Source of the DNA: Anaerophaga thermohalophila DSM 12881 | Lineage (GTDB): Bacteria > Bacteroidota > Bacteroidia > Bacteroidales > Marinilabiliaceae | Reading direction: 5' to 3' | Length of the DNA: 43,104 bases | Assembly (NCBI RefSeq): GCF_000191885.1 | Contig: NZ_AEWI01000036.1 | Coordinates: 1-43,104, forward strand | Shown here: positions 31,596 through 38,267 of the stretch, in pieces | How positions within the stretch are numbered: the stretch's first letter is position 1 | How the letters are laid out: each line of letters opens with the position of its first letter | Notes under the pieces: model-generated | Database searches by the model: none | What the model saw: the letters and a program-made list of their open reading frames with translations, nothing else | Told to the model about the DNA's origin: nothing | Translations under genes and position numbers: made by a program

Positions 31596-31808
31596 TCAAT
31601 GTGCAAACATAAAGACCTGTCGGTAAAAACAATTTGAGGGCAGTCCTGCTGCAAATTGACCAATCAAATATTCGAAAGCATCACCGGAAAATCTGCCATT
31701 CATTGCTCCGTGCAATTCGTCTGCGATTTTCCAAAGGGTGTTTCCAATATAGTTGCGACAGGGATTGTCGTGTCTGTACGGTTCATTTGCTGTTATGTTA
31801 TTTTGCAT
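31596..31808 (-). pseudogene. Possible HsdM (type I restriction methylase) remnant
   Basis: The 70-aa frame contains YIGNTLWKIADELHGAMN (about 31698-31751), which closely follows the N-terminal helix of HsdM proteins (LGxTLWxIADxLRGAMNAxxF). Sequence on both sides does not continue the domain. It overlaps the end of the transposase gene by a few bases. The match is short, so this is a tentative call. Confidence 0.4.
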
Positions 31809-32039
31809 CTAAAAATTTATCTTCCTCCCAATTTTTAGGATTGTTTGTGATATAAGATGTAATTTTTTGAAACGATTTATCATCCCGGATGATATTGTCA
31901 TAAAAACGGGTTTGCCATTGAAATTCAAAACCTAAACGATGGGCATGTTTTGATACGGCAGATTTGTAGGAACCTACAATGGACGAAATGGAATTTTTCC
32001 CGATATTTTGAAATCGTTGTTGACCGATGGTTTTCGGGA

Positions 32040-32145
32040 TGGATTCCGATTGGTTGTCGGGATTGGTTATCCGGTTGGTTATTCGGTTGGTTATTCGGTT
32101 GGTTATTGGATTGGTTGGGCGATTGGTTGGGCGATTGGTTGGGCG
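32040..32145. repeat. 12-bp tandem repeat inside the transposase gene
   Basis: Units of GGTTATTCGGTT and GGTTGGGCGATT type repeat about eight times. In the two frames they encode NQS/NNQP or TNRP/TNRI repeats. The reading frame of the transposase is lost here. Confidence 0.8.
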
Positions 32146-32180
32146 ATCGTAGAGACAGGGCATGCCCTGTCTCTACGATC
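32145..32180. repeat. Perfect 36-bp palindrome (REP-like)
   Basis: The two 18-base arms, centred between 32162 and 32163, are exact complements; the core is AGACAGGGCATGCCCTGTCT. A related imperfect palindrome (CAGGGCGTGCCCTG) lies at 32612-32625, just upstream of the transposase gene. Palindromes of this GAGAC..GTCTC type accompany RAYT genes. Confidence 0.8.
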
Positions 32181-32310
32181 CCATCCCCATTCCCGTCACC
32201 GTCACCATTATTCCCATTCCCATCCCCGCCCCCGTCACAATTATCCCCGTTACCGTTACCATCACCATTCCTGTTCCCGTCATCATTCCCGTCATCATTC
32301 CTGTCATTTG
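32180..32310. repeat. Hexamer tandem repeat (CCCGTC/ATTCCC) inside the transposase gene
   Basis: Short 6-bp units (CCCATT, CCCGTC, ACCATT, CCCGTT) encode a Gly/Asn/Asp linker in the transposase N-terminal frame on the minus strand. Simple-sequence expansion. Confidence 0.75.
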
Positions 32311-32835
32311 TAATAATCAAAATACCATGAATATGATTAGGCATGACCACGAATTCGCCTAATTCAACATTTTGCGTATGATGTGGAATTTGATACCACA
32401 ATATATCTGCAATGATGCCAATATGCGACAATTGCATTTTACCATCATGTATTTCACCAAAATAATGGAACCTATTCTTCGTACAAATGGTAATAAAATA
32501 GGCACCTGCCCACCGATAATCCCAGGATTGCAAACGGGCAGACGGAATGCGGTATTTATTTTGAAATTTATCCATATCTATTCATATTGATACAGGACAT
32601 GCCCTTCAGGCAGGGCGTGCCCTGTCTGAACAAATAGGTCGTAGTATTCATTTCCGGGCATTACGCAAGACCATGAACGTCGCCCATTTTGGCTTCCCGC
32701 CATCTGCAGGACCGGAAAGCGGACAGGCCACTGCAACTTTTAAATAGTTAAAATCGTTCATTATTGTGACATTCTTTTGAATTGTGATATGTTGACAATT
32801 AACATTTACAGATGCAAACATTTTTAAAGATTTGC

Positions 32836-34032: not shown

Positions 34033-34622
34033 AACATCCGAATCTTCGATTCCACTTTAGACTGCAAACCCCTATAATACCCGAATTCTCGCAAGCAAGC
34101 GGCAGGGTCGGGCGAATCAATTCCGCTCAACAGCCACTACCGAATTTTGATCGGGAATTTAGAAAATGTAAGACTTTCACTAAAAATACCGGGGGAGCCA
34201 ACATTTTCAATATCAGGGTTAACTTTGTTGATTTTGCTGTTTTGGGTGGGTATTCCGGTGATGCTGCCCGCATTCCTGTGATATTGACCCTTGCTCAGTA
34301 ATGATTCAAAGAACAAGATGGACTGACAATATTACCGTTTTTTTCTTAAACTTTCACCTCTTAATTCGATTCTATGAGAAGGTATGGACTAATCTATCTA
34401 AAATAGCATCTGCAATCGTCTCTTCTCCAATTTCTTTAAAGGTTTTTGAATAAAACCTCTAAATAACCAACACCTAAGCTATATTAGCTACGGAAAGGGG
34501 TCAACATGCTCCGGATTTTCCGTATTTTAGACTTGATGGGGGTCAGCATCCGCCGGAATGACATGCTTTTTTGCTTAAAAAAAGGTGTGGATTTGTGGAT
34601 TGTAGATATTTATTATCAAACA
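34033..34622. other. Non-coding region between the padR operon and the nuclease-helicase operon
   Basis: 590 bases with no convincing gene. TTAGACTGCA near 34067 is a worn type A end. Short frames near 34220-34300 (FWVGIPVMLP) look like debris but are not identifiable. No terminator with a T-tract was found for either flanking operon. Confidence 0.45.
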
Positions 34623-36596
34623 TTAGATTAAAGGTATTCCTATGTCTTTTAAATAATTAAATGTTGGGTCATAATATTCCTTTCTTCGCGTGTGGTCATT
34701 ATCGCTTCCTTCTGGAACTACAATAACCATACCCTGCCTAGCTCTTGTAAGTAACACACGATATGCATTTATAAGATATTTTTTTCGCTCAATTTTATTA
34801 ATATTTTGCCATTTTTTCCCTCTAAATGAATATGTTTGCCACTCATTTTTTGAATACCGCAAATCACCATCCCAGACAACACAGCTCCAATCTAACTCTA
34901 ATCCTTGAATATGAAATTCAGTAACAACATCTTCCATATAAAATGATGAACGAACATCGTCTTTATCATCCAAAAACCAATTCACATAATTCATTGGAGA
35001 CTTTACATCAATAGCAAATGGCTTTAATCTCAGTGCTTGTGAAGATACAACAATTCCATATCGTTCACTACCTCTAGCCTTTTCTTTCAGCCATTTTTTA
35101 GCTTTTATTATATCCCGTGTTAAAACAATTGGGTATCTATTTGAAAACTGCAAAAAATCATCTTTTGCTTTTTCTATATTTAGGTCTAAAAGGTTTTTAA
35201 CAAAAGATGATAACATTTCCGCTCTGAATGAACGCAATGATACAGCTAAATGCAAATCTTTGTCAAAATAAGCCCGACCTAGTAAATTCAATTTATCAAT
35301 GACATCGATTGCCGAATATTCTGAATCTGCAAGATTTGGTGATATATAAACTTTCCAATCCGGGAAAGTCTTGTCTATTGCATCTAACCACTCAGAAATA
35401 CCTGCTTCACCAGTGTTTATTTCTTGACCACTACCAACTAAGCAAACAATTACAGCCCAGTTTTTGTGTCTATCCAAACACGAAATAAGAAACTCAGGCT
35501 CAGAATAATCAAAGTCATGAATTCCTTTTTTCTGTTTCATGAACTTAATCGTTTGTTGTTTATTCCAAGCTCTTTGGGCTTCGTCGAATATTGCTACATG
35601 GTCGTATGGTGCGTCTGAATTTTTGAGATATTCATCTCTATAATGATGAACAATTTGTATAAATGCTTTTACAGCCTGTTTTGCAGCTATTTTAGTTATT
35701 TTGTTCCCTTTTTCTCGTTCTCTTTGAACTTTATCTCTTGCTAAGGCTTCTTGCAGAATATCAACTAATGGCTTGTTCCCTGATAAATAAACACTTGCAT
35801 TACCATTTTCATTATCAAGGTGAGATGTAGCAACATTGAGTCCAACAAGTGTTTTCCCAGCACCAGGCACACCAGTTACAAAACAGATAATTTTATTATT
35901 GTTTCTCTTGGCACTTTCAATTATTTCAGATATTTTACTTGTCGTAACTGTTAGGTTTTTTGCATCTGCATCGCTACGAGTAATATTTTCAACACTGTGT
36001 GTTGTATAAAGAGCAACGGCGGCTTCAATAATTGTTGGAGTTGGCATATAACCACCGTTTATGTATTCAGATATATTTATTTGTCGTTCATTTGAAAAGA
36101 AATATAAAGCATTTTGTATTACTTCAAGTAATCCTTCACTGCCAATTTTTACAGGTAGAGTTAATTTGTCATTATGGGAAGTAAGCTGTATTTCTGCATA
36201 GTTCTTTTTTGCTTCTGTTGCAATTAAAACAGGTACTAAAACAACATTATGACTTGTTTTATGAAAATTCTTTAAATCTAAAGCATAATCCCACACCTGT
36301 TCAACATTATGCCTTAGAAAATGCCTTTCACCAACTTTAAATTCAATAACGAAAACAACATTTTCTATAATTAAAAGTGTATCAACCCTTTTCCCCATTC
36401 GAGGAATAGAGAATTCAAAAAAAACTTCACCATTAAACTCGTTTAAAGCCGCTTTCAATATAGGAATTTGTAATTCCCATGACTTATTTTGCAAAAATGT
36501 AGCATCAAACTCATTTGACCTTGTCATTGAGCCAATTATCTCATTTACTGATGATTTAAGAAATCTTTGAATTGAATTCCGATAGTAATAATTCAT
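34623..36596 (-). CDS. PD-(D/E)xK nuclease-SF1 helicase fusion (DUF2075)
   Basis: 657 aa. The N-terminal domain has E61, D72 (GKRVDTLLI), E85-F-K87 (VIEFKVG) and Q100, the arrangement of a PD-(D/E)xK nuclease. Then a DUF2075-type SF1 ATPase: Walker A GVPGAGKT (242-249), Walker B AIFDEAQRAW (336-345), FHIQGLELDWSCVVWDGDL and the arginine finger region NAYRVLLTRARQGMVIVVP near 625. Such proteins are frequent in restriction and defence loci. It starts directly after the stop codon of the 80-aa gene, in one operon with the Vsr-like nuclease. Confidence 0.88.
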   Translation of the reverse strand: MNYYYRNSIQRFLKSSVNEIIGSMTRSNEFDATFLQNKSWELQIPILKAALNEFNGEVFFEFSIPRMGKRVDTLLIIENVVFVIEFKVGERHFLRHNVEQVWDYALDLKNFHKTSHNVVLVPVLIATEAKKNYAEIQLTSHNDKLTLPVKIGSEGLLEVIQNALYFFSNERQINISEYINGGYMPTPTIIEAAVALYTTHSVENITRSDADAKNLTVTTSKISEIIESAKRNNNKIICFVTGVPGAGKTLVGLNVATSHLDNENGNASVYLSGNKPLVDILQEALARDKVQREREKGNKITKIAAKQAVKAFIQIVHHYRDEYLKNSDAPYDHVAIFDEAQRAWNKQQTIKFMKQKKGIHDFDYSEPEFLISCLDRHKNWAVIVCLVGSGQEINTGEAGISEWLDAIDKTFPDWKVYISPNLADSEYSAIDVIDKLNLLGRAYFDKDLHLAVSLRSFRAEMLSSFVKNLLDLNIEKAKDDFLQFSNRYPIVLTRDIIKAKKWLKEKARGSERYGIVVSSQALRLKPFAIDVKSPMNYVNWFLDDKDDVRSSFYMEDVVTEFHIQGLELDWSCVVWDGDLRYSKNEWQTYSFRGKKWQNINKIERKKYLINAYRVLLTRARQGMVIVVPEGSDNDHTRRKEYYDPTFNYLKDIGIPLI

Positions 36597-36839
36597 TTAC
36601 AACGTCTCCCAAACCCCATTGTTATAATATTTAATGTCTGTACAGCCAGAATTATCCATTTCATCATCTAATGGGTCAAATGAATAATTTTTAGCACTTA
36701 ATCCTTCATAATACAATTTATTATCTGCATCAAACAACCGGAAAGGATATTTGTATTTTCCAGATTTGAAGGTTAAGTCATTTTTTAGTCGTTCTTTATC
36801 TTCAGGAAAGATTGATTTAGTAATTATATATATCATCAT
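36597..36839 (-). CDS. Small protein of the nuclease-helicase operon
   Basis: 80 aa, acidic, no known motif; YKYPFRLFDADNKLYYEGLSAKNYSFDPLDDE suggests a compact beta-rich domain. The start overlaps the vsr stop (ATGA, 36836-36839) and the stop is directly followed by the helicase start, so it is translated as part of this module. Could be an adaptor or inhibitor of one of the nucleases; this is only inferred from size and coupling. Confidence 0.75.
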   Translation of the reverse strand: MMIYIITKSIFPEDKERLKNDLTFKSGKYKYPFRLFDADNKLYYEGLSAKNYSFDPLDDEMDNSGCTDIKYYNNGVWETL

Positions 36840-37291
36840 GCTATGTTTTTGTTACGCGTTATAAATATTTTATTCATAAATACAATTAAATCATTTAAAA
36901 CCAAGTCTCTCTTGCCTTTTTTTAATTCACATTCCCAGATCACTTTTACACACCAGTCAAGTGCTTCAAGCTCTTTTATTTTCAATTCATCACGATGTTT
37001 TGTTTCATTAATTTTGTCAAGCCACCATTCTGTTTTTGTTTTTGGAACAACAAAATACTTACAATTCTGATGTCCATGCCAGAAACAACCATTAACAAAA
37101 ATTACTGTTTTATATTTTGGTAAAACTATATCAGGTTTTCCTGGTAGCTTTTTATAATTCAATCTATAACGGAATCCATGCTTATGTAAAAATTGTCTGA
37201 CAAGGATTTCCGGTTTCGTATTCTTCCCTTTAATCCTTGACATATTATAACTTCTTGTCTTTTTATCATGTACATCAGCCATAATATGCAT
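36836..37291 (-). CDS. vsr: Very short patch repair endonuclease (Vsr)
   Basis: 151 aa, full family length. TRSYNMSRIKGKNTKPEILVRQFL, FRYRLNYKKLPGKPDIVLPKYKTVIFVNGCFWHGH, PKTKTEWW and IWECEL are the Vsr signatures. Active-site and zinc residues are E28, D54, H72, and C69, H74, C77, C121; the position of E. coli His64 is Asn67. Vsr nicks 5' of T in T:G mismatches created by cytosine methylation, yet no cytosine methyltransferase is in the window. It leads the three-gene operon, so it may have been recruited for another cleavage task. Confidence 0.93.
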   Translation of the reverse strand: MHIMADVHDKKTRSYNMSRIKGKNTKPEILVRQFLHKHGFRYRLNYKKLPGKPDIVLPKYKTVIFVNGCFWHGHQNCKYFVVPKTKTEWWLDKINETKHRDELKIKELEALDWCVKVIWECELKKGKRDLVLNDLIVFMNKIFITRNKNIA

Positions 37292-37544
37292 TTTCGAGCG
37301 TTGGCAAAAAATAGCTCTTTTGAGTTTTTGTGGGATGGATTCTCATATCACTTATCTTTCAGTTTATCAGTTAGTATGTATATCATCTTTTTATCATTCA
37401 GCAATAACGCTCGGCTGCATGTGTCAGGCCGGGGGTTTCAACCCGGCAACGATTGTTTCAAGCCGTGACCGGGTAACAAGGAAAAACGAAGCTTGCAATA
37501 TGCTGTGAAGCCATGGCTGGTGTATACAGATTGTTGTGGCGTCG
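37292..37544. other. Spacer between the SIMPL gene and the vsr operon, possible attC-like repeat
   Basis: 253 bases, no gene. Contains CGACGCCACAAC (minus strand, near 37544), inverted blocks GGGGGTTTCAACCCGG and GCGTTATTGC. Together with GTTGGGC at 38308-38314 (minus strand, upstream of the SIMPL gene) this resembles the cassette boundaries of chromosomal integrons, but no integrase is in the window. Confidence 0.3.
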
Positions 37545-38267
37545 TTATTCTTCAATATTCCAAATAACTCCAATGGTCTTTTTTATTTCTATTTTATTTG
37601 GATTTAGATTTAAGTCTTGCTGACTTTCCTCTTCTTCTTCGACTATGTAAAATATCGTTGGTTCGTTTGTGAGTATATCATCTTGATAGTTTGAAAATCC
37701 AAAATTTATATCTTTAATTTTAGATAGTCTGATATTCAGCGACTCAGCTATGTAACTCGCTTTCTTTTTTGCATCATCAATTGCCAATTCAATTGATTGT
37801 TTCAGTAACTCGTTTTTTTGCTGGTTACTTAGTTTGAAAGATAAATAATATGCTGTTGGAAATCCTGTATTTTTCAAGGTTTTCATTACTGTATTCAAAG
37901 AATTTGAATTATATGGAAGTTCAAGAATCACTGTGAGGCTTCCTGAATATCCATCTTGTTCTCGTGTTCTTGTTTTTTGAGACCATGAATAACTCTCCGT
38001 AATATTCAGTCCACTAGATTTTAAATTTTCTTTTGAAATTCCATTTCTGGCAAATGCCTTTTCAAGTTGGTTGTAATAGGTAACTAGTAAATCTGAACAT
38101 TTTGAATAAACGGTATCTTTCGAGTTAATAGTTATATCAACTAACATCAATTCTGGAATCTCACTGATAATTGCGTTACCTTGAACTCGTAAATGATTAT
38201 CTTGCAATTGAGAAAATGAACTGACAGCAGTCAATAAAAAAATGATGGTTAGTATTCTACTTTTCAT
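37545..38267 (-). CDS. SIMPL-domain (DUF541) secreted protein
   Basis: 240 aa from ATG 38267; the frame opens 18 codons earlier (38321) but MKSRILTIIFLLTAVSSFSQ is the clear signal peptide start. The mature protein reads LRVQGNAIISEIPELMLVDITI, FARNGISKENLKSSGLNITESYSW and DDAKKKASYIAESLNIRLSKIKDINF, all typical of SIMPL/DUF541 (Oxidative stress defence/BP26-like, ring-forming periplasmic proteins). The function is uncertain. Confidence 0.88.
   Translation of the reverse strand: MKSRILTIIFLLTAVSSFSQLQDNHLRVQGNAIISEIPELMLVDITINSKDTVYSKCSDLLVTYYNQLEKAFARNGISKENLKSSGLNITESYSWSQKTRTREQDGYSGSLTVILELPYNSNSLNTVMKTLKNTGFPTAYYLSFKLSNQQKNELLKQSIELAIDDAKKKASYIAESLNIRLSKIKDINFGFSNYQDDILTNEPTIFYIVEEEEESQQDLNLNPNKIEIKKTIGVIWNIEE

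Follow-up and report, generated by a model that had tools for sequence, protein, structure and literature searches.

A Helicase-Nuclease Cassette behind a Probable vsr Left-Over in Anaerophaga thermohalophila

The stretch of Anaerophaga thermohalophila DSM 12881 DNA analysed here (the window; 43,104 nt, contig NZ_AEWI01000036.1, assembly GCF_000191885.1) shares its flanks and its vsr gene with the corresponding locus of another genome of the genus, G001; a breakpoint lies inside vsr, and the modules beyond it differ. Two further loci, in other genera, show an exchange of this kind. In the window, the genes of an 80-aa protein and of a helicase-nuclease stand where G001 has a C5 methylase and MzaB-E, and vsr is therefore likely to be a left-over of a G001-type operon. 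We consider it quite probable that the two genes are a cassette at the position of the methylase and MzaB-E, with vsr left behind. It should be kept in mind that the genome is a draft (4.32 Mb, 98.65% complete, 5.39% contamination), and the possibility of a chimeric contig within the window is a point against the exchange. The individual parts are known, and their combination as a trio is unsupported; it is the pattern of exchange behind them that is unusual.

The Three Genes of the Window and Their Counterparts in G001

As an earlier, sequence-only reading of this DNA had it, three ORFs on the minus strand are tightly coupled (Table 1): an ATGA overlap joins the stop of vsr with the start of the 80-aa gene, and the TAA stop of the latter directly abuts the ATG of the helicase-nuclease gene. 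Chance ORFs were rejected as the identity of these genes, since the proteins are conserved in relatives. The G+C content is 29-36% in the exchanged genes of both kinds, those of the window and those of G001, as well as in vsr and in the neighbouring gene upstream of it; in three housekeeping genes of the window it is 45-47%. At 31798-32575, what looks by eye like a transposase ORF runs into long simple repeats, with NGDGNG encoded in one reading frame and PTNR in a second.

Table 1. Features of the window, with positions in the 43,104-nt stretch
Feature	Positions	Strand	Remarks
vsr	36836..37291	-	151 aa; codons 1-137 as in G001 vsr, last 14 codons new
80-aa (or 79-aa) protein gene	36597..36839	-	predicted partner of the helicase-nuclease
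PDC-S41 helicase-nuclease gene	34623..36596	-	657 aa
SLFN-g3 (formerly DUF2075) helicase domain	34713..35888	-	residues 237-628, Walker A 242-249
Predicted PD-(D/E)xK active-site stretch	36336..36383	-	D72 to K87, motif from family knowledge
Left flank common to G001 locus L104	33445..34246	.	99.5%; homology extends further left
Right flank common to G001 locus L104	36864..41136	.	96.9%; takes in most of vsr
Right breakpoint	36864..36881	-	inside vsr near codon 138; G001 homology ends
Left breakpoint (34246) and repeat remnants	34246..34585	.	repeats also present elsewhere in the genome (contigs C154, C156 and C200)

The helicase-nuclease carries the proposed DUF2075 helicase domain (PF09848 of Pfam, 274.8 bits), which now goes by the name SLFN-g3. 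Its residues D72, E85, K87 and 242-249 are invariant in an alignment with 13 relatives; we take the first three to be those of a PD-(D/E)xK nuclease, and the Walker A residues 242-249 to be those of an ATPase. At least 7,999 relatives were found by search. The link to defence that had been suggested for this gene is supported by its match to the unvalidated PADLOC candidate PDC-S41 (941 bits, residues 1-655, profile 1-651 of 657), and it is probably a defence gene. According to the accessible part of the source, PDCs are candidates from a guilt-by-embedding screen, most of which await validation (PMC12988326). Our literature search found no paper naming PDC-S41.

The 80-aa protein was said to belong to no recognised family, and it indeed has no match in PADLOC, Pfam or NCBIfam. 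Fifteen relatives were found by search; the gene may start one codon later, giving 79 aa, as it does in the closest of them. Among the best 80 of 578 confirmed helicase loci, and setting the window aside, the gene stands beside the helicase only in L053, where the two adjoin through the same TAAATG stop-start and the 80-aa frame holds a TAG. The pair of 80-aa gene and helicase thus recurs in L053, and Vsr is the changing part. Four relatives of the 80-aa protein and four of the helicase come with longest contigs of equal length (5647, 4106, 3761 and 4304), and from these lengths alone the pair is perhaps present in four further genomes. Another small protein, of a family here called YRD that matches nothing in Pfam or PADLOC and measures 84-106 aa in the six members aligned, is encoded in the same direction as the helicase and within 100 nt of it at 10 of the best 80 of 578 loci (L010, L013, L027, L061, L063, L066, L067, L068, L076 and L079). 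YRD genes are also found beside HNH nucleases (L177, L178, L240), a type IV-like enzyme (L208) and a type II-like operon (L181).

The Vsr of the window scores 135.7 bits against TIGR00632 of NCBIfam, above the cut-off of 97.85, and 115.5 bits against PF03852 of Pfam; its match to 1cw0 has an E value of 1.4e-32. It had been described as lacking a C5 methylase within the window, and its orphan state goes further, as a profile search for PF00145 found none in the window and none in the whole genome. There is consequently no known source of the mismatch on which a Vsr usually acts. D51 of the E. coli Vsr aligns to D54 of the window protein, and H64 to Asn67; we take D51 and H64 to be active-site residues of the E. 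coli enzyme, with a presumably catalytic role for His64. The Asn codon lies at about 37091-37093. Asn also replaces His64 in the MZA-linked vsr genes of L104, L105 and L106, and the equivalent of His64 is kept in those of L012, L020 and L107. The window Vsr is nearly full length and could still act, which counts against its being a left-over.

The Vsr proteins of the window and of G001 are 98% identical, and over codons 1-137 (411 bases) a single synonymous base differs, too little to gauge selection on the window vsr. Between the common flanks, G001 has the last vsr codons, a C5 methylase gene whose start overlaps the vsr stop, MzaB, MzaC, MzaD, and an MzaE that is split across two frames. 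In their place the window has a new end of vsr, followed by the 80-aa and helicase genes. MzaB-E are absent between the window vsr and the left flank, and the G001 genome has no match to PDC-S41. The order vsr, C5 methylase, MzaB-E is also seen in G032, G028 and G477. The idea that a methylase elsewhere in the genome might account for the Vsr thus fails for this genome, which has none, and survives in another form, in that vsr, C5 methylase and MZA stand together at the same locus of G001.

Just upstream of vsr, within the flank common to G001, lies a repeat of about 145 bp (37405-37551). The genome holds 16 other full or partial copies, 11 of them of at least 110 bp, and on contigs C105, C110 and C117 several copies are spaced between small genes in the manner of a cassette array. 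As an attC candidate the repeat folds no better than its shuffles (z -1.19), and all matches in a search for an integron integrase were under the TIGR02249 cut-off.

Vsr Starts as Junctions at Other Loci

In genus g56, the start of vsr leads to PDC-S41 in G063, to PDC-S36 in G180, and to PDC-S07 together with a SauUSI-like type IV enzyme (757 bits) in G241; the flanks on both sides are common to these three genomes. Homology between G063 and G180 stops about 17 codons into vsr, and restarts about 12 and 8 nt past the respective stop codons. In a fourth genome, G147, the module of PDC-S07 and type IV enzyme recurs, judged by the likeness of the ORFs, with the upstream flank alone matched. In genus g133, G360 has an intact operon of vsr, an HTH gene, a methylase and a 390-aa protein; in G338 the same place is taken by a vsr stub and by genes for a 603-aa AAA protein, for an HNH nuclease and for a small protein of the YRD family, and the flanks of the two align at 78-82%. 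The stub in G338 is followed by a 129-bp copy of the end of the upstream gene. A NUDIX gene, which is PDC-S07 in L206, L243 and L250, precedes the type IV-like enzyme in these three loci and in L208; L041 and L044 likewise have NUDIX-like ORFs upstream of their helicase genes.

A wider view was obtained from the best 80 of 578 confirmed helicase loci, among which distant relatives are thinly represented as a result of this choice. A Vsr or methylase match within 2 kb upstream of the helicase was present at 22 of these best 80 loci. After removal of L032 and L082, where the match is antisense, there were 20 with same-strand sequence upstream vs 0 downstream (Fisher p 5e-7). All of the 20 relics except L020 and L064 are 5' stubs whose 3' part is gone (18/20), and a full-length vsr upstream of the helicase was seen only in L020 among the best 80 of 578, the vsr of L012 being truncated. 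Outside the 20 are L009, in which nine vsr codons are fused in frame, and L066, with a stub about 2.8 kb upstream. The junction falls at about methylase residue 43 in L045, exactly at the helicase ATG, at about residue 370 in L040, and at about residue 396 in both L043 and L037, the last of which has an extra internal deletion; in others it falls at about vsr codons 17 to 36. Where a stub is present with no gene between it and the helicase (14 loci, L067 entered at +51 nt), the stub frame ends -8 to +24 nt from the helicase ATG in 9. MzaE without its start follows directly behind the helicase in L020, L029 and L040.

In a tree of the helicases, the window groups with L053, L008, L009 and L029. 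The stub labels cluster in this tree, so part of the pattern is inherited or travels with the cassette. No Vsr or methylase relic was found within 2 kb at 60 of the best 80 of 578 loci. As a replicate, 16 of 395 genomes of the class carry the helicase at E ≤ 1e-100; excluding the window and five genomes with contigs identical to earlier loci leaves 10 new ones, and none of these 10 has a relic in the flank of about 1.5 kb or less. It follows from both counts that the cassette does not need the junction. Stubs of the vsr 5' end also occur in tandem, in L061 (5000-6640), L063 (2900-4520) and L244 (556-2524); those of L061 lie within repeated non-coding units, and those of L244 upstream of an intact vsr.

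The vsr starts were also surveyed independently of the helicase. The N-terminal 40 residues of Vsr were found at 89 places in 81 of the 395 class genomes. The open frame is shorter than 110 aa at 17 of the 89, of which 13 are clear stubs; G162, G364 and the second places of G105 and G402 were left out as weak, and G219, at a contig end, was also dropped. Behind 9 of the 13 clear stubs stands a nuclease-type module of one of four kinds: PDC-S07 in four cases (type IV enzyme next in three, contig end in the fourth), PDC-S36 in three, and HNH and PDC-S41 in one each. The remaining stubs lead to an IS and a zinc-ribbon ORF (one each, both by eye) and to further vsr copies (two). Of the 27 vsr places found in 100 relatives of the window, 3 are stubs, with HNH and YRD behind two and an integrase-like ORF with a methylase match behind one. 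A 735-aa ORF behind a vsr stub in L176 (2500-4707, minus strand) has, by eye, a tyrosine-integrase-like start and then a C5 methylase match. Fourteen loci with an intact vsr were inspected, not as a random draw, and in 12 of them the stretch covered includes a C5 methylase (L093, L104, L172, L173, L179, L180, L181, L252-L255 and L258); none was seen in the stretches covered for L174 and L175. In the literature covered by our search, which takes in few bioRxiv preprints and some sources only in part, we found none that describes the 5' stubs of vsr as a junction.

The Proposed Exchange and Its Alternatives

Under the exchange explanation, the state of the window would be younger than that of G001. 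The retained 5' end of vsr would supply a promoter and a translational start for the cassette, which would work without Vsr as a methylase-free nuclease. The predicted helicase may translocate on invading DNA or unwind it, the predicted PD-(D/E)xK domain may cut this DNA, and the 80-aa protein may regulate or target the helicase-nuclease. In Bacteroidia at large, the first codons of vsr, and sometimes those of its methylase neighbour, appear to form a recurrent junction for swaps of restriction-type modules, in which the former leading gene keeps its 5' end while the modules are exchanged. The tandem stubs, like the gene end that is copied in G338, would then be scars of repeated recombination.

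An alternative is that the helicase is an old member of a vsr-methylase-AIPR operon, and that decay left the 5' stubs because their promoter was needed. Such erosion would fit L020, where vsr and an almost entire methylase stand together with the helicase and an MzaE without its 5' end; it would also fit L037, with the junction of L043 plus a deletion inside the methylase, and the clustering of stub labels in the helicase tree. Decay alone, however, is insufficient to explain how the window's genus, g56 and g133 all keep their flanks with wholly different modules behind vsr, and we consider this explanation unlikely. A similarly small chance is given to the possibility that the helicase is a type IV-like enzyme against 5-methylcytosine, and that the methylase was lost as the two cannot coexist. 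The SauUSI-like enzyme is another module at the same junction, and the window's genome is without PF00145, both of which are in line with this idea; PF00145 is present in 5 of the 16 helicase genomes vs 176 of 379 others (p=0.31), a difference that decides neither for nor against it. Least probable, in our judgement, is the one machine put forward in the sequence-only reading, with Vsr as its nicking part and the helicase-nuclease as its degrading part: the genes are tightly coupled, and a young trio, perhaps newly assembled in this lineage, is conceivable since Vsr keeps its domain, but the trio co-occurs at 0 of the best 80 of 578 helicase loci, which leaves no conserved three-gene system, L053 has the pair behind a methylase stub without Vsr, and the window vsr matches that of the G001 MZA operon.

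The exchange explanation could be taken a step further. The 5' end of vsr, together with that of its C5-methylase neighbour, might be a general port in Bacteroidia, through which entire restriction operons are exchanged for methylase-free nuclease cassettes (PDC-S41, PDC-S36, PDC-S07 with the type IV enzyme, AAA-HNH); we offer this tentatively, and put its chances at slightly short of even. Each cassette would take the promoter and first codons of the old gene as a translated leader, and small partners such as the 80-aa protein and the YRD family would be shared or exchanged between unrelated nucleases. If true, it would explain several single-gene defence candidates that are embedded in other systems. 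The case also links several single-gene candidates, as yet unvalidated, through a common way of spreading, and it calls for caution, in that tight coupling of genes in a defence island need not mean one machine. Three genera now give genome pairs with the edge of the exchange inside the same gene, which makes the question of exchange testable.

Comparison with Known Systems

The window Vsr has the fold and family in common with V.EcoKDcm, a Vsr that stands beside a Dcm-type methylase; it differs in that its genome is without a C5 methylase at PF00145. The MZA system with Vsr and C5 methylase follows the near-identical vsr in G001 and is found in the three relatives named above, whereas the window keeps none of its genes except vsr. 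Restriction operons of this kind, which combine MORC or paraMORC with a helicase, a cytosine methylase, Vsr and AIPR, are already on record from 2008; the available part of that source also notes gene displacement (PMC2292703). PDC-S41, which the helicase-nuclease of the window matches over its whole length, is a single gene in PADLOC; the window copy, in contrast, has an 80-aa partner and stands behind vsr.

Two further comparisons are drawn from partly available sources. In the E. coli immigration control region, restriction segments are likewise replaced at one place with a remnant gene left, by a mechanism that the review terms unknown (PMC3874153); the genes there are others, and here the edge lies repeatedly inside vsr. 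The genes found through guilt by embedding (Payne et al. 2024, as cited in PMC12988326) are likewise defence genes inside the operon of another system. The window differs from these in that the host operon is broken and its body replaced, with a 5' stub kept.
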